Assembly (NCBI GenBank): GCA_946500895.1
Contig: CAMMXG010000005.1
Location: forward strand, 1-57,730
Direction: 5' to 3'
Length of the DNA stretch: 57,730 bases
Source of the DNA: an uncultured Mycoplasma sp.
Lineage (GTDB): Bacteria > Bacillota_I > Bacilli_A > RF39 > UBA660
Both the position numbers and the translations under genes were made by a program. Position 1 is the stretch's first letter. Each line of letters begins with the position of its first letter. Below are positions 3,086 to 57,730 of this stretch, in pieces. The notes beneath the pieces are model-generated. The model was not told the DNA's origin. It saw only the letters and a program-made list of their open reading frames with translations, and did no database searches.

Positions 3086-3133
3086 TTAATTGTTGATATA
3101 TGCTTGGCGTTTTTACGTTTTGGAGATGATATT

Positions 3134-4318
3134 ATGAAAAAAATTAAAAATACAGAATCTATTTTATACAATAGAGGTAGCAAAAAGTTTGTAGCAGATT
3201 TATTGTCTGATAAGAAAAACAATATAATCTTTACTAAAAATGATTTAAATAATATTATATATAAGTATGACAAAAAAGGAATAATATTTTTTGAAGATAA
3301 AAAAACAAAAAAACGTTACAAAAAAGTACCGAAAGATTATTCACCAAAGAAATATAGGAAATTTACTGACGTATTAGAACCTCGTAAAACAGCTTTAAAA
3401 AAGTTGAATAAATATTTGTCTGAATTAAGAATACCCAATTATGTATTTGCAAAAACTGATGGTGGTTATGTGAAAAATGCAAAATTTCATAAAGGAAATA
3501 CTAACTTTTTATTAATTGACATAGCAAGTTTTTATCCAAATTGTAAATTTAATCAAGTGAAACAGTTCTTTATGTCTGGTGGTGGCTTTAGAATGAAAAA
3601 TGATTTGGCACAAAGGCTGGCTGAATTAGTAACTGTTCCAGAAAAGGAAAATTCAAAAGTTAGAGTTATACCGCAGGGGTTTTCAACTAGTACATTAATA
3701 AGTTTTTTTTCTTACAAAAAAATGTTTGCTGAATTAAATAAATTGGCAATAGAAAATAATTTGATTTTTAGTACTTATGTGGATGATGTAACATTTTCTA
3801 CTAATAATGAAAATTTTGATTTTAATAATATATTGAATAAAATAGATGTAATTCTAAAAAAATATGGTCACAAAAGAAAAATTGAAAAAACTCAAATATG
3901 TTTATTGAGTAATGGAGAATGTCCTACAATAACCGGTATATGGATTAAAAGATACAAAGTAAGAGCTTCAGCCAAGATATATAAGAAATTAATTTTTAAT
4001 TATAGATGGTTAAATTCAAATGCTATAACTGATTCAAAAAGTTATTTAAATGCATGGAAACATTTTGTCGCTTTAAAAGGATTATTAAATACAATTGATT
4101 ATATTGAACCAATAACAAAGAAAAAAAGAGATTTTATTAGAAAATATGTGAATGAAAATGATAAAAAATTCTTAAAAAATATATCACCTTATAATAGGAA
4201 AATTAATAGCAATTACTGGAAAGGTAAATTTTATAATGCCTATTTAAGTAATAATTTAGAAATTTTTTATATTGCTAATAAAGATAAATTAACAAAAAAG
4301 AGAACTAAAATATATTAA
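3134..4318 (+). CDS. Retron-type reverse transcriptase
   Basis: NAKFH (retron NAXXH), LIDIASFYPNC, IPQGFSTST, FSTYVDDVTFS, TITGIWI (VTG-like). ATG 3134 has RBS GGAGATGAT; TTG 3104 less likely. Confidence 0.8.
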   Translation: MKKIKNTESILYNRGSKKFVADLLSDKKNNIIFTKNDLNNIIYKYDKKGIIFFEDKKTKKRYKKVPKDYSPKKYRKFTDVLEPRKTALKKLNKYLSELRIPNYVFAKTDGGYVKNAKFHKGNTNFLLIDIASFYPNCKFNQVKQFFMSGGGFRMKNDLAQRLAELVTVPEKENSKVRVIPQGFSTSTLISFFSYKKMFAELNKLAIENNLIFSTYVDDVTFSTNNENFDFNNILNKIDVILKKYGHKRKIEKTQICLLSNGECPTITGIWIKRYKVRASAKIYKKLIFNYRWLNSNAITDSKSYLNAWKHFVALKGLLNTIDYIEPITKKKRDFIRKYVNENDKKFLKNISPYNRKINSNYWKGKFYNAYLSNNLEIFYIANKDKLTKKRTKIY

Positions 4319-7444: not shown

Positions 7445-9361
7445 ATGAAAAAGTGGACATTTCCAAGTGTAAAGAATATAGGAATTAAGGGATTTAATGA
7501 TATTGGTGAAGAATTTAAAGATAATCCTATGTTTCATTTAGCTAAAGAAATATGTCAAAATTCTTTGGATACAAAAGTTACCAGTGCATATAAAAGTAAT
7601 GGAGAACCTATTAGAGTCGAATTTAAGGAGTTTTTGATGACACCTGAAAGTATTCCCGGCAATGAAAATGGAGAATTTAAAAAAATAATCGAGGATGAAT
7701 ATATTTTTAATAAGAATTATTATGAAAATGATAATACAGTACCTGACTTTTATAAGAACGCATTAAAACTTTTAAATGAAGGTTTCATCAAATGCTTAAG
7801 AATTAGTGATTTTAATACTACTGGTTTAATTGGATCAGATAAAAAATCACATACGCCTTGGATTGATTTGACTAAAAATGCTGGTGTAACAGATAAACCA
7901 GAGGGTTCTGCAGGAAGTAAGGGGAAAGGAAAGTTTGCTTCATTTATTTGTTCTGATTTTTACACAGTATTTTATAGTACAAAAGCTAATGATGGTTTGG
8001 ATGCATCCTGTGGAATTTCTCGAATTTCTGGATACGAAAAAGAAGATGGTACGACTACAATTGGCGAAGGATATTATGAAGATGATGAAAGGCCACTTAA
8101 CTATTGTTTAAATTTAGATAATAGTTTTAAGCGAGATAGTTATGGAACGGATATTTATGTGTTAGGTTTTAAAAGTACCTATGAAAATTGGAAAGAAAAA
8201 ATGTGTGCTTCTATCATTGAAAATTTTTTTGTAGCAATATATAAAGGTGATTTAGTTGTAACAATCGGAAATGACTATCAAATAAATCGATTTACTATTA
8301 AGGAGTATATAGATAATCCAATTATTTCTAAGCATTTATTACCTGATACTAAGTGTTATTATAATATTTTAACAGCGGATGAAGATGATGTATTATTATC
8401 AAGTTGTGATATGTTTGAAAAGGAAGATGTTATCTTAAAGTTAAGAAAAGATGATATGGATTTGTCGGATATCAATAAAGTTGCTATTGTAAGATTAACT
8501 GGTATGAAAATATTTGATATGACAAAATTGCCAAGGTTAGGAAAATATCATGGTATATTGTATATGCAAGGAGTAAAAGTTAACGATTATTTTAGAAAAT
8601 TAGAAAATGCTACTCATAGTAATTGGTCAGCAGATAGGGTTCAGGATTCGGCTGATGCTAAACGGAAAATAAAAGAAATAAGAGATTTTGTTATGGAATC
8701 AATCAAAAATTTAATGGGTAATATTACATTAGATGAAGTTAGTGCTACAGGGGTAGGGGAAATTCTTCCTGATGAGGATGAATTTTCTAATTCTGAAGAT
8801 AGTAATAAAAATGAAAGTATAGAAAACGAAATAATAAAAACTATTGAAATTATTGAGACAGGGCCAGAAAAAGTTAAGAAAGAAGAAAAGATAACTAATG
8901 AAGAAAATGATGAACTTGGCTTGGTATTAGATGAAAATGGACAAATTATTGATACAAGACCAGAAGTTAACTCTATTGATCCATATCCCGGTCCGAATCC
9001 AAATCCTATGCCTCCTAAAGAGAATCGCTATTTAGAAGTTAATAAAAAAATATTGCCAAAAAAATTAAGATTAATGGCAAATAATGGATATTATAAATTA
9101 ATATTAGCCTTAAATGATAATGAAGAGATCATTAAAATTTGTGTAAATATTTATGGTGAGAGTGGTACGGAAAAAGCTATAATTTTAAATGCTAAATGTT
9201 CTATAAAGTCTAAATTATTTGGTTCAACTGTTCCAGTTGAAATTAGTGATAATAGCATAATCCTTAAAAATCTTAATAAGGACTATGTTTATGACTTAGA
9301 ATTTTATGTTAAAAGTGATGCGATTTGGCCTTTGGAGGTGAAAGTTTATGGTGAGAAATAA
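7445..9361 (+). CDS. GHKL/Hsp90-like ATPase, first gene of three-gene operon
   Basis: HLAKEICQNSLDTK (N-box-like), SDFNTTGL, GSAGSKGKGKFASF glycine-rich lid. Confidence 0.7.
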   Translation: MKKWTFPSVKNIGIKGFNDIGEEFKDNPMFHLAKEICQNSLDTKVTSAYKSNGEPIRVEFKEFLMTPESIPGNENGEFKKIIEDEYIFNKNYYENDNTVPDFYKNALKLLNEGFIKCLRISDFNTTGLIGSDKKSHTPWIDLTKNAGVTDKPEGSAGSKGKGKFASFICSDFYTVFYSTKANDGLDASCGISRISGYEKEDGTTTIGEGYYEDDERPLNYCLNLDNSFKRDSYGTDIYVLGFKSTYENWKEKMCASIIENFFVAIYKGDLVVTIGNDYQINRFTIKEYIDNPIISKHLLPDTKCYYNILTADEDDVLLSSCDMFEKEDVILKLRKDDMDLSDINKVAIVRLTGMKIFDMTKLPRLGKYHGILYMQGVKVNDYFRKLENATHSNWSADRVQDSADAKRKIKEIRDFVMESIKNLMGNITLDEVSATGVGEILPDEDEFSNSEDSNKNESIENEIIKTIEIIETGPEKVKKEEKITNEENDELGLVLDENGQIIDTRPEVNSIDPYPGPNPNPMPPKENRYLEVNKKILPKKLRLMANNGYYKLILALNDNEEIIKICVNIYGESGTEKAIILNAKCSIKSKLFGSTVPVEISDNSIILKNLNKDYVYDLEFYVKSDAIWPLEVKVYGEK

Positions 9362-10220
9362 TAATACATTTTTTGCATATCCGATTTTGTGTAATTATAA
9401 TGATGATTATAATAGCATTAAGTTTATTGCTGGAACAACTGGGAAAATGACCAAGACTAATAAAAAAGCAACTGTTGAAACTTATGTGGAAATCGAGGAT
9501 GAAGAAATTAATAAATTATTAAATAGTAAGAAATTAAAAATTGTTACTAAAGTTTTTTGTCCTAGTACAAAATATAGAAAAATATTTGAGATCCAAAGGG
9601 GTTTCGATAAAATTGAAATAAATAATAGAGATATTAATAAAAGAGTAGAGCTTACAACTTATATTATCGCTAGTCAAGATGTTTATAATTATTTTTCTTA
9701 TAATTTTAATGATGATTATAGAGGAATGCAATTTGATATTGAAAAGGGAGCCATTATAGCAATTGGAAAGCAAGAAAGTTTATTTTTTGAAAAAGATATT
9801 GATGATTTAACAAAGATAGATTCTGTAGTAAAAATTAGAGATTTAAGGCAAGAAAATGAACCAATGTCTGTAATGTGGGATGATGAAATTATTAAAATAA
9901 ACCTATCAACATCTGATTATGAACTTTATTGTAGATATTCGGAATATTGTGTTCCAATTGTTAATTCAATGATTGTTATTCCTGGATTGATGTATGTTTT
10001 AGATCAGATTGCTTCTGATCAAATTGATATTAATGATGTAATGGATAAGAAGTGGTATAGAGTTCTTTCTAAAAAAATAAGTGAATCTACTGGTAAAGAA
10101 TTTAATTTGAATTATATTAAAGCAAATGATTCCTTTGAAATTATTCAAAAATTGTTTGATACTCCTATTCACGATGCAATGAAGGAGATTGAGTTAAAAT
10201 ATGGAGGTGAGTTAAGATGA
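9348..10220 (+). CDS. Hypothetical protein, second gene of GHKL operon
   Basis: Start overlaps upstream stop by 14 nt; RBS TTTGGAGGTG. Confidence 0.7.
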   Translation: MVRNNNTFFAYPILCNYNDDYNSIKFIAGTTGKMTKTNKKATVETYVEIEDEEINKLLNSKKLKIVTKVFCPSTKYRKIFEIQRGFDKIEINNRDINKRVELTTYIIASQDVYNYFSYNFNDDYRGMQFDIEKGAIIAIGKQESLFFEKDIDDLTKIDSVVKIRDLRQENEPMSVMWDDEIIKINLSTSDYELYCRYSEYCVPIVNSMIVIPGLMYVLDQIASDQIDINDVMDKKWYRVLSKKISESTGKEFNLNYIKANDSFEIIQKLFDTPIHDAMKEIELKYGGELR

Positions 10221-10972
10221 TAATTAGATATTTAAAAGAAGACAGCGTTGATTTATTAAAAAAAGTCGATTTAAAATATAATTTAAAGAATTATTCTGGC
10301 GTTAATACTTGGCTTAATATTCAGTATCAAAATCAAGGGATAAATTTGTTTGCTTCTTATGAGAAGAAACTTTTTTCGGATTTTACTTTGAAAACAGAGA
10401 ATGGTGTTGCAGATGATTTTGAAAATATGAAAATAATATATGAGAGTTTAAAAGAATTAACTGATTCACAGGCAAGTGATGAAAGAATTTGGGCTGGTTT
10501 AGCTCATGACTATTGTTGGGAATATATGCAGAAAAGATGGCCCCTTCCTGAGAAAAAAGAAGATATGATGGCACATGTTTTAAATAATTATTTTTTTTGG
10601 AATAGTACTAAAGCTGTTTTTTTGAATGGAATATCACGGTTATGGTGGTATGCAAGGTATACTTATGATGAAAGATTTGAAAATCCTTATATTTTAACAG
10701 AATATATATGTAAAAATGATATAAATGGTAAAATATTTCCGTTACTTGCATGTCGTTTTGCAATGAACCCTGATGTATTTAAAAATATAATATTATCTGT
10801 CAAAATGTTTGAGGAAGAAAATAATATTAAGTTAAGCAGAAAGCAATTTAATGGCCTCAAGATGTATTTAAATAGACTAAGTGGGAAAGTAATTATTGAT
10901 TCTTTGTCATTTGCCGATTTAAAAGATAAGATATATTTAAAATTGAGAAATATAATTAATAGTAAGCAATAG
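10217..10972 (+). CDS. Hypothetical protein (DUF6339-like), third gene of GHKL operon
   Basis: 4-nt overlap with upstream gene; LTDSQASDERIWAGLAHDYCWEYMQKRWP / WNSTKAVFLNGISRLWWYARYTYD. Confidence 0.65.
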   Translation: MIIRYLKEDSVDLLKKVDLKYNLKNYSGVNTWLNIQYQNQGINLFASYEKKLFSDFTLKTENGVADDFENMKIIYESLKELTDSQASDERIWAGLAHDYCWEYMQKRWPLPEKKEDMMAHVLNNYFFWNSTKAVFLNGISRLWWYARYTYDERFENPYILTEYICKNDINGKIFPLLACRFAMNPDVFKNIILSVKMFEEENNIKLSRKQFNGLKMYLNRLSGKVIIDSLSFADLKDKIYLKLRNIINSKQ

Positions 10973-21347: not shown

Positions 21348-21803
21348 ATGAAATTTGATATAAAAAATGTTTTAATGTTTGTGATGGTGGCTTTATTAGC
21401 TTTTTTGGCTATCTATAAAATATTTAGCAAAGAAGAAATTACTGTTAATGACGATAAAGTTACTGATGAAGCTGTTTTTGATGTTACAGTAAGTGCTGAA
21501 GTAGCAGTAAAGCTTTATTATGAAAGTGATAGAAAATATTATTTGTATGGATTAGATGAAGTAATGGTTACGTATAAGAATGAAACTAAAACTTTGAAAA
21601 GTTTTTTGAGTGATGGAGTATCTATTGAAGATTTGGTTAGTCATATGGAAACTAATGCTTTTTATGATGGTGGTACTAATCTTTATCGTGATGATACAAC
21701 AGCAGTTTTGGTTTGTCATCGCATTATTGGTAATGGCACTTATAATGAGAATGTTTATATTGGTAACTCTAGTATGGGTTTTGAGGAAGGATTTTGTAGA
21801 TAA
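21348..21803 (+). CDS. Membrane-anchored hypothetical protein
   Basis: N-terminal TM, immediately after SDR gene. Confidence 0.6.
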   Translation: MKFDIKNVLMFVMVALLAFLAIYKIFSKEEITVNDDKVTDEAVFDVTVSAEVAVKLYYESDRKYYLYGLDEVMVTYKNETKTLKSFLSDGVSIEDLVSHMETNAFYDGGTNLYRDDTTAVLVCHRIIGNGTYNENVYIGNSSMGFEEGFCR

Positions 21804-26535: not shown

Positions 26536-26838
26536 TACAATAGGTTTGGTTAATCTAGATAAGTGCAACACTTTTTGTCTCCACGTAACTTTAACAGCGG
26601 TAATGCTAACGTGTTCATTGTGAATACGAGTGGCAACCTCAACAACGACTGGGTGGATAACACGTGGGGTGTGCGCCCAATATCCTTTTAAACTTAGTAT
26701 TTGGTTAAGGCTAAATAAAAAAGCATTAGGATACAAGATTAGCCATTGGATAATTCCTAAATAATTAATATTGATGTTTTAAATCTTGTATTTAAAATTA
26801 GGACAATATTAGGGCTGGAAATACTCTAGCCTTTTTAT
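26536..26838 (+). ncRNA. TR/VR-like ncRNA unit A (promoter, variable AAY-rich segment, conserved tail, terminator)
   Basis: Extended -10 TGGTACAAT (TACAAT 26536-26541); GGTTAATCTA 26548; variable SPRNFNSGNANVFIVNTSGNLNNDWVDNTWGVRPISF* 26578-26691; tail shared with units B, C; AGATTAGCC 26736-26744 pairs with GGTTAATCT; terminator GGGCTGG..CTAGCCTTTTT. Confidence 0.6.
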
Positions 26839-26936
26839 ATGACAAAGTAAGACAAAACTTGTCAAAATAATCTCCTAGATAAGTGCTTTTATCTATTGTA
26901 TAATAATTATATTCTTTATAACAAAGGGGATTTTGG

Positions 26937-27854
26937 ATGGAAGAAATAAATTATTACAACGAAATTAAAAATTTGATTGAGAATTATGAAGTTAATCATA
27001 GAGTACGCATTTTCCAAGACAATAGTGAAAAATTACAAATGAACTGGAATATAGGACGATTGTTAGTAGAGGCGCAGGGTAGTTTAAATCGCGCCAAATA
27101 TGGTGATGGGTTAATTAGGAAATGGTCTAAAGAATTTGAAGCAATTTATGGAAAAAATTATAGCCATACAAATTTAAGATATATGCGTCAATTTTATCTG
27201 TTATTTCCAATTTATCACTCACTGAGTGATAAATTAACCTGGACTCATTATCGATATTTATTACCTATTAAAAGTAAAAATGAAAGAAACTATTATATGA
27301 ATCAAGTAATACTTAATCATTTATCAGTAAGAGAACTAAGAGGATTAATTAAAAGCAAAGCATATGATAGATTATCATATGTAGATAAAGAAAAAATTGA
27401 ATTAATAGATAATCATACTACTTTAAGTATAGAGGATATGATTAAGGAACCAATATTAATTAAAGTAGATAAACGAGCTAGTAAATTAGATGAAAAAGCT
27501 TTACATAAGTATATTATTAATATGCTAGAAGATAGATTCTTAGAATTAGGGACTGGATTTGCTCTTGTTGGGCATGAATTTAAAATTAAAATAAATAATC
27601 ATATATTTAGAATAGATTTATTATTCTTCAATATAAATTTAAACTCTTACATTGTAATAGAATTAAAAACAAGAGAGTTTAAGCCTCAAGATATAGGACA
27701 ATTAGAATTATATGTAAATTATATTGATAAAAATATTAAATTATCTAATCATAATAAAACTATTGGTATATTAATAGTTAAAAAGAAAGATAAATATGTA
27801 ATAGAGTATGTTACTAATAAAGAGGTTTTTATTACAACTTATAAATTAGTATAA
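26937..27854 (+). CDS. DUF1016 (YhcG-like) PD-(D/E)XK nuclease family protein, copy 1
   Basis: NWNIGRLLVEAQ, YSHTNLRYMRQFYLLFP, LTWTHYRYLLPI, FRIDLLFFNINLNSYIVIELK. Confidence 0.9.
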   Translation: MEEINYYNEIKNLIENYEVNHRVRIFQDNSEKLQMNWNIGRLLVEAQGSLNRAKYGDGLIRKWSKEFEAIYGKNYSHTNLRYMRQFYLLFPIYHSLSDKLTWTHYRYLLPIKSKNERNYYMNQVILNHLSVRELRGLIKSKAYDRLSYVDKEKIELIDNHTTLSIEDMIKEPILIKVDKRASKLDEKALHKYIINMLEDRFLELGTGFALVGHEFKIKINNHIFRIDLLFFNINLNSYIVIELKTREFKPQDIGQLELYVNYIDKNIKLSNHNKTIGILIVKKKDKYVIEYVTNKEVFITTYKLV

Positions 27855-27889: not shown

Positions 27890-28200
27890 TATAATTGGGT
27901 TGGTTAATCTAGTTAAATGAAGCTAGTCTCCGTCTAACTTTAATGCTACGAACAGTAATGCTTGGGTGTTCAATGTGAATTCGACTGGCAACCTCAACAA
28001 CAACGTGAATAACACGCGAGGTGTGCGCCCAATACCCTTTTAAACTTAATATTTGGTTAAGGCTAAATAAAAAAGCATTAGGGTACAAGATTAATCATTG
28101 GATTTATTCCTAAATAAATAGTATTGATATTTTAAATCTTGTATTTAAAATTAGGACAATGTTAAATAGCCTCAAATTTAATTTGAGACTATTTGTTTTA
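27890..28200 (+). ncRNA. TR/VR-like ncRNA unit B
   Basis: Extended -10 TGTTATAAT (TATAAT 27890-27895); GGTTAATCTA 27902; variable SPSNFNATNSNAWVFNVNSTGNLNNNVNNTRGVRPIPF* 27927-28043; AGATTAATC 28088-28096 pairs with 5' end (one G-U); terminator AAATAGCCTCAAATT..AATTTGAGACTATTTGTTTT. Confidence 0.6.
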
Positions 28201-28302: not shown

Positions 28303-29214
28303 ATGAATGAAGAAAAATATTTGGAAGAAATAGAGTATTTAATTAAGAAAAACGAGATTGGTAAACGTAGTAGAAAAATAGAGGAAAATAGTAGTTTAGT
28401 GGAAACATATTGGCAGGTTGGCAAAATTATTGTGGAAGCCCAAGGAGGAAGCAAAAAAGCTAAATATGGGAATGAATTAATTAAGAAGTGGTCAGTTAAA
28501 TTAACAAAAGTTTATGGTAAAGGATATAACATTACTAGTTTAAAACGTTTTCGGCAATTTTATTTGATTTTTGAAAAAGGTGCCCCAGTGGGGAACCAAA
28601 TAAGTTGGACTCATTATCGAGAATTATTGCCTATTAAAGATGAGAATAAGAGAAATTTTTATATTAATTTGTGTATCAAAAATAATTTATCTAAAAGAGA
28701 GTTAATTAATGAAATAAAATTTAATGCATATGAAAGATTAGTTGATAAACCTCCTAAAATTGATATTATTACTTCATCAAAATATTCTATAACTACAGAT
28801 ATGAAAAATCCAATTATTATTCCTGTTAATAATAAGATAAAGAATGAACATGATTTAGAATTAAATATTCTTGCTAATTTAGATTTTTTCTTTAAACAAT
28901 TAGGTAGTGGATTTTTATATGCAGGACATCAATATAAAATAACTGTTGATAATAATAATTATTTTATTGATATTTTACTATTTAACATTGAATTAAATTG
29001 TTATATTGTTGTTGAATTAAAACTTCGAAGTTTAAAAATGGAAGATAAAGCTCAAATGGAATTTTATATGAAATTAGTTGATGAAAGAGTTAAAAAAACA
29101 TTTCATAACAAAACAATAGGAATACTTATTACTAAAGAAAGTGATAAGCTTATAATTAATTTTATTAAAAGTGATGATATTATTCCTTTATGTTATGAAT
29201 TAGTAAAAAGTTAG
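28303..29214 (+). CDS. DUF1016 (YhcG-like) PD-(D/E)XK nuclease family protein, copy 2
   Basis: YWQVGKIIVEAQGG, ISWTHYRELLPI, FIDILLFNIELNCYIVVELK; ATG 28303 with RBS AAAGGGGAT, preferred over 28159. Confidence 0.9.
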   Translation: MNEEKYLEEIEYLIKKNEIGKRSRKIEENSSLVETYWQVGKIIVEAQGGSKKAKYGNELIKKWSVKLTKVYGKGYNITSLKRFRQFYLIFEKGAPVGNQISWTHYRELLPIKDENKRNFYINLCIKNNLSKRELINEIKFNAYERLVDKPPKIDIITSSKYSITTDMKNPIIIPVNNKIKNEHDLELNILANLDFFFKQLGSGFLYAGHQYKITVDNNNYFIDILLFNIELNCYIVVELKLRSLKMEDKAQMEFYMKLVDERVKKTFHNKTIGILITKESDKLIINFIKSDDIIPLCYELVKS

Positions 29215-29542
29215 TTGTAATTATCTTGCTATAACTTTATAATAAAAGTGGTTAATCTAATATAGAAGCATGTCTCCGAATCGCTTTAACTCTAGTGGTA
29301 ATGCTAACGTGTTCTATGTGAATTCGAATGGCAACTTTGGCAACAACAACGTGAATGGTACGTTAGGTGTGCGCCCAATACCCTTTTAAACTTAATATTT
29401 GGTTAAGGCTAAATAAAAAAGCATTAGGGTACAAGATTAACCATTGGATTTATTCCTAAATAAATTATATTGATATTTTAAATCTTGTATTTAAAATTAG
29501 GACAATATGAAAATAACCTCAATTGAATGGGGTTATTTTTTC
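29215..29542 (+). ncRNA. TR/VR-like ncRNA unit C
   Basis: TTGTAA (29215) - 17 nt - TATAAT (29238); GGTTAATCTA 29250; variable SPNRFNSSGNANVFYVNSNGNFGNNNVNGTLGVRPIPF* 29273-29389; AGATTAACC 29434-29442 is exact complement of 5' GGTTAATCT; terminator AATAACCTCAATTGAATGGGGTTATTTTTT. Confidence 0.65.
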
Positions 29543-29745
29543 TTAATGATTATTTCAAAACCATTTTTATTTGCAAGTTCTAGTAAATCTTTAAATAAAT
29601 AATTGCTTCTTCCTAGTTCATTTGATTGACACCAATCTTTTGATTTATTGATAGTTTTTGCAAATTCTTTTTGAGTTAAGTCTGTAGCTTGTCTCATAAA
29701 TTTTAGAATGTCATTAGGTTCATAATTGTTTGCTTTTATTTCCAT
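29533..29745 (-). CDS. Small XRE-like HTH regulator
   Basis: ILKFMRQATDLTQKEFAKTINKSKDWCQSNELGRSNYLFKDLLELANKNG. Confidence 0.75.
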   Translation of the reverse strand: MEIKANNYEPNDILKFMRQATDLTQKEFAKTINKSKDWCQSNELGRSNYLFKDLLELANKNGFEIIIKKK

Positions 29746-29799
29746 AAGCTACACCTCTAGTTTGCATTATAACAAAATATATTTTTAATATTTTTAAAT

Positions 29800-29919: not shown

Positions 29920-31278
29920 GTGTTGAATATGAAATTCAAAGTTTTAAAGCAAAGTCATTTAAAGAGAAATATATTAATTGGAGTAATAGTAGTAGCAATC
30001 ATTAGTGCCATTGTACTTAATTTTACTAGAGCAAAATATAGAAATACACAGTCGATACCACTTGTAAATGGCACGATTAATTATAGTTTGGCAGATTTAA
30101 ATATTGTAGCGATTACTGTTGATGGAGAACCATCTGATACTATACCAGAAGGTAATTATGAATTAACAGAAGAAAGCTATTGTACCATAAATGGCGAAGA
30201 AGATAGCAGTATTACTATCAGCTATGAAGCGGATATACAACTACTTACTTTAACACCATTTACAACTAAGGGAACTAAATGTTATTTAGATTTTAAAAAA
30301 GCAACCACACGACCAGTTGACACAACATTACTAGGAACAATCAATGTTAATTTAGATACCCCAGACTTTAGTAAATCCAGTTGCACGAATGGTAGTAACG
30401 ATGGAGGCGATTGCGGAGAAGAAACTGTAGGAATTTATGAAGAAACAACTAGTAGAGGAACAACTTACTACTGGCGTGGGGATGTAGATAATAATTACTT
30501 GATATTTGCAAATAAATATTGGCGAATTATCCGAATCAATGCAGATGAAACAATACGAATTATCTATAGCGGAGAAAAATCAGAAGTGGATGCAGCTGGA
30601 AAGGAGAGAGTGTTAGCAAATGGATATTATGATGGAATTACCGATTATAAACAAATCCAAGAAAGTGCATTCAATAGTTTGAGAACTGCAAGTTACTATG
30701 TAGGATATACATACCAAACGAATGCACAAAGGCCAAGTAGTCAAAATGAAGGAACCGCAAGTACAATCAAAGAAATATTAGATACATGGTATAGTAATAA
30801 TTTAGCAAGTTATGATAATAAAATAGCAAGTGGAGGAAGTGCAGGATTCTGTAATGACAGAAATTCATATTTGAATACTAGTGGAACAACAGCATCATGG
30901 GTAGCAAGTGGAAGTACTATTTATTATGCACCATTTGTAAGAGTATATACAACACATCAACCAACCTTAGAGTGTGGTAATAATAGTGATTTGTATACAA
31001 CAAAGATAGGACTCAGTACAGCAGATGAAGTTATGTATGCAGGACAAGGTAATAGTAATTTGGGATATTATCTTTATACAGGGAGTTCTTATTGGACCAT
31101 GTCTCCGTATTATTATAATGTTTATGCTCGTGTGTTCTATGTGCATCGGTATGGCTATCTCATGGACACCACTGTGGATACCGTGTATGGTGTCCGACCT
31201 GTCATTAATCTTTCATCTGATGTTACCATAACAGGAACTGGTACAATAGATGACCCATACCAGGTAGTTGGAGCTTAA
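29920..31278 (+). CDS. Membrane-anchored surface-type protein with variable C-terminal domain
   Basis: N-terminal TM (NILIGVIVVAIISAIVLNF); C-terminus SYWTMSPYYYNVYARVFYVHRYGYLMDTTVDTVYGVRPVINL aligns to units A-C. Confidence 0.75.
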   Translation: MLNMKFKVLKQSHLKRNILIGVIVVAIISAIVLNFTRAKYRNTQSIPLVNGTINYSLADLNIVAITVDGEPSDTIPEGNYELTEESYCTINGEEDSSITISYEADIQLLTLTPFTTKGTKCYLDFKKATTRPVDTTLLGTINVNLDTPDFSKSSCTNGSNDGGDCGEETVGIYEETTSRGTTYYWRGDVDNNYLIFANKYWRIIRINADETIRIIYSGEKSEVDAAGKERVLANGYYDGITDYKQIQESAFNSLRTASYYVGYTYQTNAQRPSSQNEGTASTIKEILDTWYSNNLASYDNKIASGGSAGFCNDRNSYLNTSGTTASWVASGSTIYYAPFVRVYTTHQPTLECGNNSDLYTTKIGLSTADEVMYAGQGNSNLGYYLYTGSSYWTMSPYYYNVYARVFYVHRYGYLMDTTVDTVYGVRPVINLSSDVTITGTGTIDDPYQVVGA

Positions 31279-56647: not shown

Positions 56648-57730
56648 GTGTGCCGTGCATGGCATATAGCTAGAGGGTGAAAGACCCTTACACGCGTAGG
56701 TATCGACGAAGTGTTAGAGAAGCACAACGCATCAACAGTGATGTTGGGGCTAAAGGAAGTGTGGAACAAAATCATGAACCAACGAATAGAAACTTACTAT
56801 AAGGCTACATAAACGGATAAGGTTGCACAACAAACTAAAGTCCAAAAGATACCCGTAACTTTGTGTGGTAGAGTAAGTGGTTAAATGAGGAAAGTTATAT
56901 GTCTTACCACGGGAGGTCTTACGAACGAATAAGTACAAAACTTTTAATACAAGAATTGTTAAGATCGGTCGAAAAAGGTTTATCGTAAGAAGTCAGCCGA
57001 GGTCATAGTACTAGTGAGTTACTAGGAAGGACTGAACAATTTATAGTGTTTCAAACACTAAAATCAATTAAGTGTAAAATCAAAATAAATACGTAGGAAA
57101 AGTTGGCGTATCCAAGTAATAACCCTTATAAAAGATGTTTCACTTAATTATGAAATTAGAAAGGAGAAACGAGTATGGAATTACTAGAAAAAATATTAGA
57201 TGACAAAAATCTATATAATGCTTATAAGCAGGTTTACAAAAATAAAGGAGCTAGTGGAGTAGATGGAGTAACTGTCGAAGAACTAGGAGTTTATTTATTT
57301 CAGCATAAAGAAGAAATAAAAGAACAAATAAGAAATTTAAAATATAAACCTAGACCCGTAAGAAGAGTTGAAATACCAAAAGAAAATGGTAAAAAGAGAA
57401 AACTGGGAATACCAACAGTAATAGACAGAGTAATACAACAAGCGATAGTACAAGTAATTACTCCATTATTCGAACCACAATCTAGCGAAACTAGTTATGG
57501 TTTTAGACTAGGTAGAAGTTGTGAGATGGCAATAATAAAAGCATTAGAATACTTCAATGATGGGTATGACTGGATAGTAGATATAGACTTACAAGCATTC
57601 TTCGATAATGTAAACCAAGATAAATTAATAGGCATTATAAGAAGAACCATTAAAGATGGAAGAGTGGTGTCATTGATAAGAAAATATCTAGTAAGTGGTG
57701 TAATGATAAATGGAGTAGTACAACCTACAA
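56648..57730 (+). mobile_element. Group II intron 5' portion, truncated by window end
   Basis: GTGTG-type 5' end (56648, alternatively 56646), GTGCCGTGCATGGC...GAGGGTGAAAGACCCTTACACGCGTAGG ribozyme-like leader, then LtrA-type ORF. Confidence 0.85.
57175..57730 (+). CDS. ltrA: Group II intron reverse transcriptase/maturase (LtrA-like), partial
   Basis: NLYNAYKQVYKNKGASGVDGVTVEEL; KPRPVRRVEIPKENGKKRKLGIPTVIDRVIQQAI; YGFRLGRSC; WIVDIDLQAFFDNVN; RBS AAAGGAG; open to window end. Confidence 0.95.
   Translation, partial: MELLEKILDDKNLYNAYKQVYKNKGASGVDGVTVEELGVYLFQHKEEIKEQIRNLKYKPRPVRRVEIPKENGKKRKLGIPTVIDRVIQQAIVQVITPLFEPQSSETSYGFRLGRSCEMAIIKALEYFNDGYDWIVDIDLQAFFDNVNQDKLIGIIRRTIKDGRVVSLIRKYLVSGVMINGVVQPT

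Follow-up and report, generated by a model that had tools for sequence, protein, structure and literature searches.

The window, a stretch of 57,730 nucleotides analysed here as contig C5, belongs to the draft genome of a gut-type bacterium, 1.28 Mb in size, 71% complete and divided into 53 contigs; this genome, like those of the relatives, was assembled from metagenomes, and about 29% of it is missing from the assembly. On the plus strand, the window carries three stand-alone template-RNA units, identified by DNA search, unit alignment and covariance model, and a gene of the family that such templates appear to serve.

Template-RNA units and their surroundings

Unit A (26548-26840) is composed of a leader, GGTTAATCT (26548-26556), a template (26578-26679), a spacer fold (26668-26809, which is also the extent of its covariance-model match of 164.5 bits) and a terminator hairpin (approximately 26810-26840). 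A -10-like TACAAT lies upstream (26536-26541), and the leader and terminator boundaries were read from the sequence. Unit B (27902-28200) follows with a -10-like TATAAT (27890-27895), leader (27902-27910), template (27927-28031), spacer fold (28020-28162, 161 bits) and a terminator hairpin extending to about 28200. The corresponding parts of unit C (29250-29542) are a -10-like TATAAT (29238-29243), leader (29250-29258), template (29273-29377), spacer fold (29366-29508; model score of the unit 164.1 bits) and terminator hairpin (approximately 29510-29542).

A DNA search with unit C as query detected 15 such units in the genome, three of them in the window and the others on contigs C11, C16, C18, C22, C24, C30 and C45. 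A covariance model of the 3´ part of the unit returned the identical 15, together with one weak match on C19. Their alignment reveals a common plan: the leader GGTTAATCT, a template and a spacer about 130 nt long, in most cases with a TATAAT-like box in front and a terminator hairpin behind. Templates are rich in Asn codons, measure about 90-110 nt and vary among themselves in length and sequence. At the 3´ end they carry a 12-nt anchor, GGTGTGCGCCCA, which resembles IMH/IMH* elements and is present in 14 of the 15 units, the one on C30 having an altered anchor.

Double-sided changes were found at 11 of the 33 base pairs of the spacer fold. The leader GGTTAATCT is complementary to AGATTAACC in the spacer, and this helix is maintained in the present genome and in relatives by compensatory changes (GGCTAATCT/GATTAGCC, GGTTTATCT/GATAAATCC). 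Judged by such covariation, the units are RNA genes. An Rfam search returned no family covering them, and a search of viral contigs for unit-like DNA gave no exact match.

Two genes of the YhcG/DUF1016 PDDEXK nuclease family, both on the plus strand and recognized by Pfam, are interspersed with the units, one (26937-27854; PF06250, PF17761) between A and B and the other (28303-29214) between B and C. The genome has 17 YhcG genes, seven of which are no more than 1.5 kb away from a unit (p=2e-6), the unit-adjacent ones being located on C5, C11, C18, C22, C24 and C19. We considered YhcG as a component of the machinery of a diversity-generating retroelement (DGR) and assigned it no role: the adjacency is significant in this genome, but the family is listed as candidate defence genes (PADLOC PDC-S02).

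The window contains further elements of interest. In a 614-aa protein encoded at 595-2439, zinc-ribbon-like CxxC motifs recur, and the sequence near the end of the protein weakly matches a homing endonuclease. Three genes at 7445-10972 correspond to A, B and C of PDC-M33, a candidate defence system. A gene at 3104-4318 encodes a retron type VI-like reverse transcriptase (PADLOC RT_VI, E=1e-49), possibly part of a retron; having QGFSTS instead of the SQ motif, it was ruled out as a DGR enzyme. The same applies to the intron-type reverse transcriptase at the end of the window (56732-57730), a group II intron enzyme that is accompanied by group II intron domains and reaches the contig end. A small minus-strand ORF between unit C and the next gene (29540-29750) reads as a putative helix-turn-helix regulator.

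That next gene (29929-31278, plus strand, 449 aa from ATG) was assigned to the target family by a Pfam match and by its homologues in the genome. Its product combines a hydrophobic segment at the N-terminus with a DUF6273-like C-terminal domain, whose match to PF19789 (E=7.9e-5) falls just below the Pfam cut-off. With regard to the C-type-lectin or Ig fold of DGR target domains, a PDB profile search with the family gave no significant match, and structure prediction of the target protein reached a pLDDT of only 28.7. Comparison with the templates places the variable region (VR) at 31099-31200, the TCT at 31102 being in frame as codon 395 of the ORF that opens at 29920. At 31189-31200, where GGTGTGCGCCCA would be expected, the gene has the altered anchor GGTGTCCGACCT.

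Adenine-directed differences in the target family

About 40-45 places in the genome are homologous to this protein, and at least 35 paralogues, proteins of surface type, possess the variable tip. We extracted 35 variable regions, one of which belongs to a canonical DGR on contig C2 (see below). The remaining 34 were split by a feature outside the variable zone, the exact anchor GGTGTGCGCCCA, which is present in 15 targets and absent in 19. Each region was compared with its nearest template, with the anchor trimmed off and all mismatches taken at equal cost.

In the 15 intact-anchor targets, 198 of 391 template adenines were changed (51%) as against 117 of 941 other bases (12%; OR 7.2, p=7e-47); since the p-values treat sites as independent and templates are shared between targets, they overstate the exact strength of the effect, not its direction. 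The coincidence of variable sites with template adenines across paralogues, which a sequence-only reading of this DNA had put forward as a check, was thereby found. In the reverse comparison, adenines of the targets were not enriched for difference (18% vs 25%), and template-template pairs displayed little to almost no adenine bias. Adenine-directed change runs from template to gene.

The codon pattern is equally pronounced. In AAY template codons, rates of change in intact-anchor targets were 0.60, 0.49 and 0.12 at positions 1, 2 and 3, respectively; changed AAC became NNC in 58 of 69 cases and changed AAT became NNT in 46 of 51 (p=4e-27). Retention of the third base combined with adenine bias is the signature of DGRs. 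Roughly 8-12% of non-adenine template positions also differ in these targets, so that some templates must be missing or some targets must have drifted. In the altered-anchor group, preference for adenine is weak (51% vs 32%, OR 2.2) and the rate of change at codon position 3 is 45%, compared with 12% in intact-anchor targets. Loss of the anchor accompanies loss of the adenine signature in this family.

The gene at 29929-31278 was the example from which the sequence-only reading started. Its VR had been described as an adenine-diversified version of a template, and much of that description holds. The framework words of the templates (TCTCCG, GCT, GTGTTC, GTG, GGC, CTC, GTG) are all present with identical bases; the AAT>TAT, AAT>CAT, AAC>GAC and AAC>ACC changes are found in the gene; and, as had been noticed, some changes are not confined to adenine, among them third-base C>T (AAC>CGT, AAC>TAT) and the anchor GGTGTCCGACCT. 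Unit C had been called a relative rather than the exact template, and we could indeed rule it out as the direct template, since the gene departs from it at 13 of its 24 adenines and at 22 of its 73 other bases. Adenine diversification as such is supported for the system and only partly for this gene, a member of the weak-bias altered-anchor group; by the same division, the derivation of NNY from AAY codons applies to intact-anchor targets and is blurred in the altered-anchor group with its drifted third bases. Against the nearest assembled template, with the anchor trimmed, 11 of 26 adenines and 10 of 56 other bases of this VR are changed (p=0.029), and in the reverse test one of its 16 adenines stands opposite a different template base. 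The adenine signal is modest for this gene and overwhelming for the family.

Because of its anchor GGTGTCCGACCT and its AAC-derived codons ending in T, we read this gene as a former target: most likely it has been retired, having lost the anchor and drifted since, as its sequence suggests. The main alternative is that the gene is still being rewritten, by a template whose anchor is different, which ends in GGTGTCCGACC and which is missing from the assembly. So much of the genome is missing that such a template could have escaped assembly, no assembled template fits well, and the internal framework words are all intact; its anchor, however, is unlike that of all 15 assembled units, and, like other altered-anchor paralogues, the gene has T in place of C as the third base of several AAC-derived codons. 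This alternative seems to us unlikely, and we conclude that retirement took place recently enough for the framework words to remain intact. An orthologue comparison with G008 was uninformative, the nearest relative there being a frameshifted homologue of about 70-76% DNA identity in a different neighbourhood.

DGR operons and distribution of the units

In relatives, a DGR operon which we call type-2 encodes a MutS-I-like protein, Avd and a reverse transcriptase (RT) with the motifs GLPIGNMTSQ and YMDD, as read in G008 and G016. It occupies a fixed site between a MYG1-like gene and a lipoprotein/CtpA pair. Avd matches were obtained with NCBIfam DivGenRetAVD (E=6.5e-9, for the type-2 protein, and 7.6e-14) and with Pfam bAvd (E=4e-9 and 3e-8), both of them under curated cut-offs, and the best PDB match of the type-2 RT was 8ub7 (labelled reverse transcriptase, E=2e-25), a BPP-1 DGR enzyme structure. 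Proximity of TR and RT is a layout common among DGRs, and it is not required for function; at nine loci of relatives, no unit was found beside the type-2 RT, units lying scattered or in arrays at other places.

Of 36 genomes of the genus, 32 contained units; the 24 genomes from outside the genus contained none. The type-2 RT was found in 25 of the 32 unit-bearing genomes and in none of the four unit-free ones (p=0.0056). One unit-bearing genome (G015, three units) has the type-2 interval without the RT, and no type-2 RT was detected in six further ones. The search of the 71%-complete source assembly did not find it either. There, contig C48 shows the expected left flank of the site followed by a transposase-like ORF that reaches the contig end; since the interval is broken in this genome, the link between units and type-2 operon rests on the relatives.

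The sole DGR RT assembled in the source genome is that of the canonical DGR on C2 (L036, 6916-10486), where a VR gene, a TR, MutS-I-like proteins, Avd and an RT with GLPIGNLTSQ lie together; the type-2 RT is about 47% identical to it. The C2 VR differs from its own TR at 20 of 32 adenines and one of 63 other bases. The VR of a near-identical locus in another genome (L144) differs from the C2 VR at 21 sites, all 21 of them template adenines, and by these comparisons the C2 DGR looks recently active. Variation among close strains, the second check named in the sequence-only reading, was thus found for this DGR. It resembles the unit system in having a VR gene, TR, MutS-I-like protein, Avd and SQ-motif RT, but it differs in its single local template and other anchor. 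The template family and the anchor, GGGGTCCGTCC, are unlike those of the units, and the unit model gave no match to C2. The C2 DGR is a second, self-contained system.

It could nevertheless be this enzyme, not that of the type-2 operon, which uses the scattered units. No other DGR RT is assembled here, the C2 system looks recently active, and the enzyme may cross-react; against this stand the distinct template and anchor, the lack of any match to the unit model, and the presence of the type-2 RT instead in most unit-bearing genomes. We hold the use of the units by the C2 enzyme to be quite improbable, and the type-2 operon is in our opinion the candidate enzyme source.

The named relatives are uncultured Bacilli, Erysipelotrichaceae or Mycoplasmatota bins. 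Targets are numerous among them as well: about 40 matching places were counted in G016, which is 99% complete, and about 36 in G014. The adenine bias was replicated in both genomes, more weakly in G014, whose templates are poor in AAY codons. G014 contains 25 units, many of them in tandem at a spacing of about 300 bp, and its arrays (L162, L163, L164) comprise at least 20 different templates, in which AAY codons have become scarce. These array templates look as if they had themselves been diversified. Template RNAs located beside DGR RTs of other lineages gave weak matches to the unit model (L148, E=6e-6; L145, E=0.009), which suggests that the stand-alone units descend from an ordinary DGR template.

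A probable dispersed diversity-generating system

Two targets trace the contribution of individual templates. In the target on C37 (L027, minus strand), the first 33 nt equal unit C except for three changes, all at adenine, and the next 72 nt equal the C16 unit except for 11 changes, again all at adenine (14/14 in total). In the target on C31 (L028), the part corresponding to unit C has six of six changes at adenine and is followed by a part corresponding to the C18 unit at 21750, with six of seven (12/13 in total). Unit C accounts for the 5´ parts of both targets, with nine of nine changes at adenine. As break points were set by fit, these two cases are selected examples. Over all intact-anchor targets, allowing template switching reduced non-adenine mismatches from 13.7% to 8.2%; in 60 simulated single-template control sets the lowest value was 9.9%, none reaching 8.2%. 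Judging from these mosaics, templates work in trans and get mixed.

The window belongs to a DGR system with an unusual layout. We consider it highly probable that this is a DGR whose parts are dispersed over the chromosome, its units being copied in trans by the RT-Avd complex into targets that bear the anchor. Each unit would be transcribed as a small RNA in which the leader pairs with the spacer; the spacer fold would recruit the RT-Avd complex into a ribonucleoprotein and serve to prime the cDNA at the conserved anchor. Adenines would be miscopied by the enzyme, presumably supplied by the fixed-site type-2 operon, and the cDNA would home to any target gene bearing the same anchor and replace its 3´ end in trans. 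Successive templates could overwrite one target in turn, and copying from the 3´ end would make mosaics of the targets. The gene at 29929-31278 would have lost its anchor and drifted afterwards.

The units might instead be silent donor cassettes from which surface proteins are varied by ordinary homologous recombination (gene conversion), without reverse transcription. Many donors, many acceptors and mosaic acceptors characterize the pilin and vls systems and are met here too, and the templates are diverse in length and sequence. Gene conversion, however, copies faithfully, whereas here 51% of the adenines in the donors are altered as against 12% of the other bases, in one direction only; moreover, the donors share an RNA fold conserved by covariation, their leaders pair with the spacer, a promoter-like box and a terminator are often present, and the donors co-occur with a DGR RT operon. 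Conversion from silent cassettes is a very improbable explanation. That selection alone, favouring diverse binding residues at Asn-rich positions, produced the differences without targeted mutagenesis is hardly credible: the variable codons do encode surface-type residues within a repeated domain, and selection is certainly at work as well, but the third bases of changed AAY codons are kept in an AT-rich genome, and amino-acid selection cannot be the cause of that.

The dispersed DGR shares its essential traits with that of Bordetella phage BPP-1 (TR, spacer, Avd, bRT, mtd): adenine-directed change from TR to VR, an IMH-like 3´ anchor, a structured spacer behind the TR, Avd and an SQ-motif RT. 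In BPP-1, however, one TR lies between avd and brt beside one target, whereas here many separate RNA genes are located away from the RT and the targets number dozens. The components and mechanism of DGRs and the role of the spacer have been described, and the BPP-1 system has been reconstituted in a laboratory strain of E. coli (PMC12875486). Remote targets and trans action are also known: in the DGRs of Treponema denticola and Thiohalocapsa PB-PSB1, similar in this respect, remote VRs are served by a distant core, trans action having been inferred from VRs that agree with a TR elsewhere at all non-adenine sites. Their TRs are few and kept with the cores, and the available text of these accounts describes no tandem arrays of stand-alone templates (PMC4891356, PMC10907252). 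In a genome survey, several VRs were recorded for 28.6% of the DGRs and multiple TRs for a minority, for instance Pseudomonas with six TRs, without A-to-N substitutions, and Stenotrophomonas with two; nothing like a genome with as many as 25 stand-alone units and dozens of targets is described there (PMC6642488). Our literature search, with most subscription journals outside its reach, returned no account of arrays composed of numerous stand-alone templates.

The DGRs described so far are compact, each cassette having a single template or a few. This genus appears to run DGR mutagenesis genome-wide: in genomes of about 1.3 Mb, a single fixed-site operon would supply the enzyme for as many as 25 separate template-RNA genes and about 35-40 targets. 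Trans action, choice of template and retirement of targets become directly testable in such a system, and for engineering the units offer a natural collection of minimal template RNAs. Targets would drop out of the system through loss of the 3´ anchor. Tentatively, and with considerable doubt, one may go further and regard the units as an evolving template library: tandem multiplication, divergence and perhaps recapture of sequence from targets would generate templates, successive 3´-first overwriting would mix them, and each would be further mutated at adenines. If so, many pre-shaped designs would be stored in the genome.
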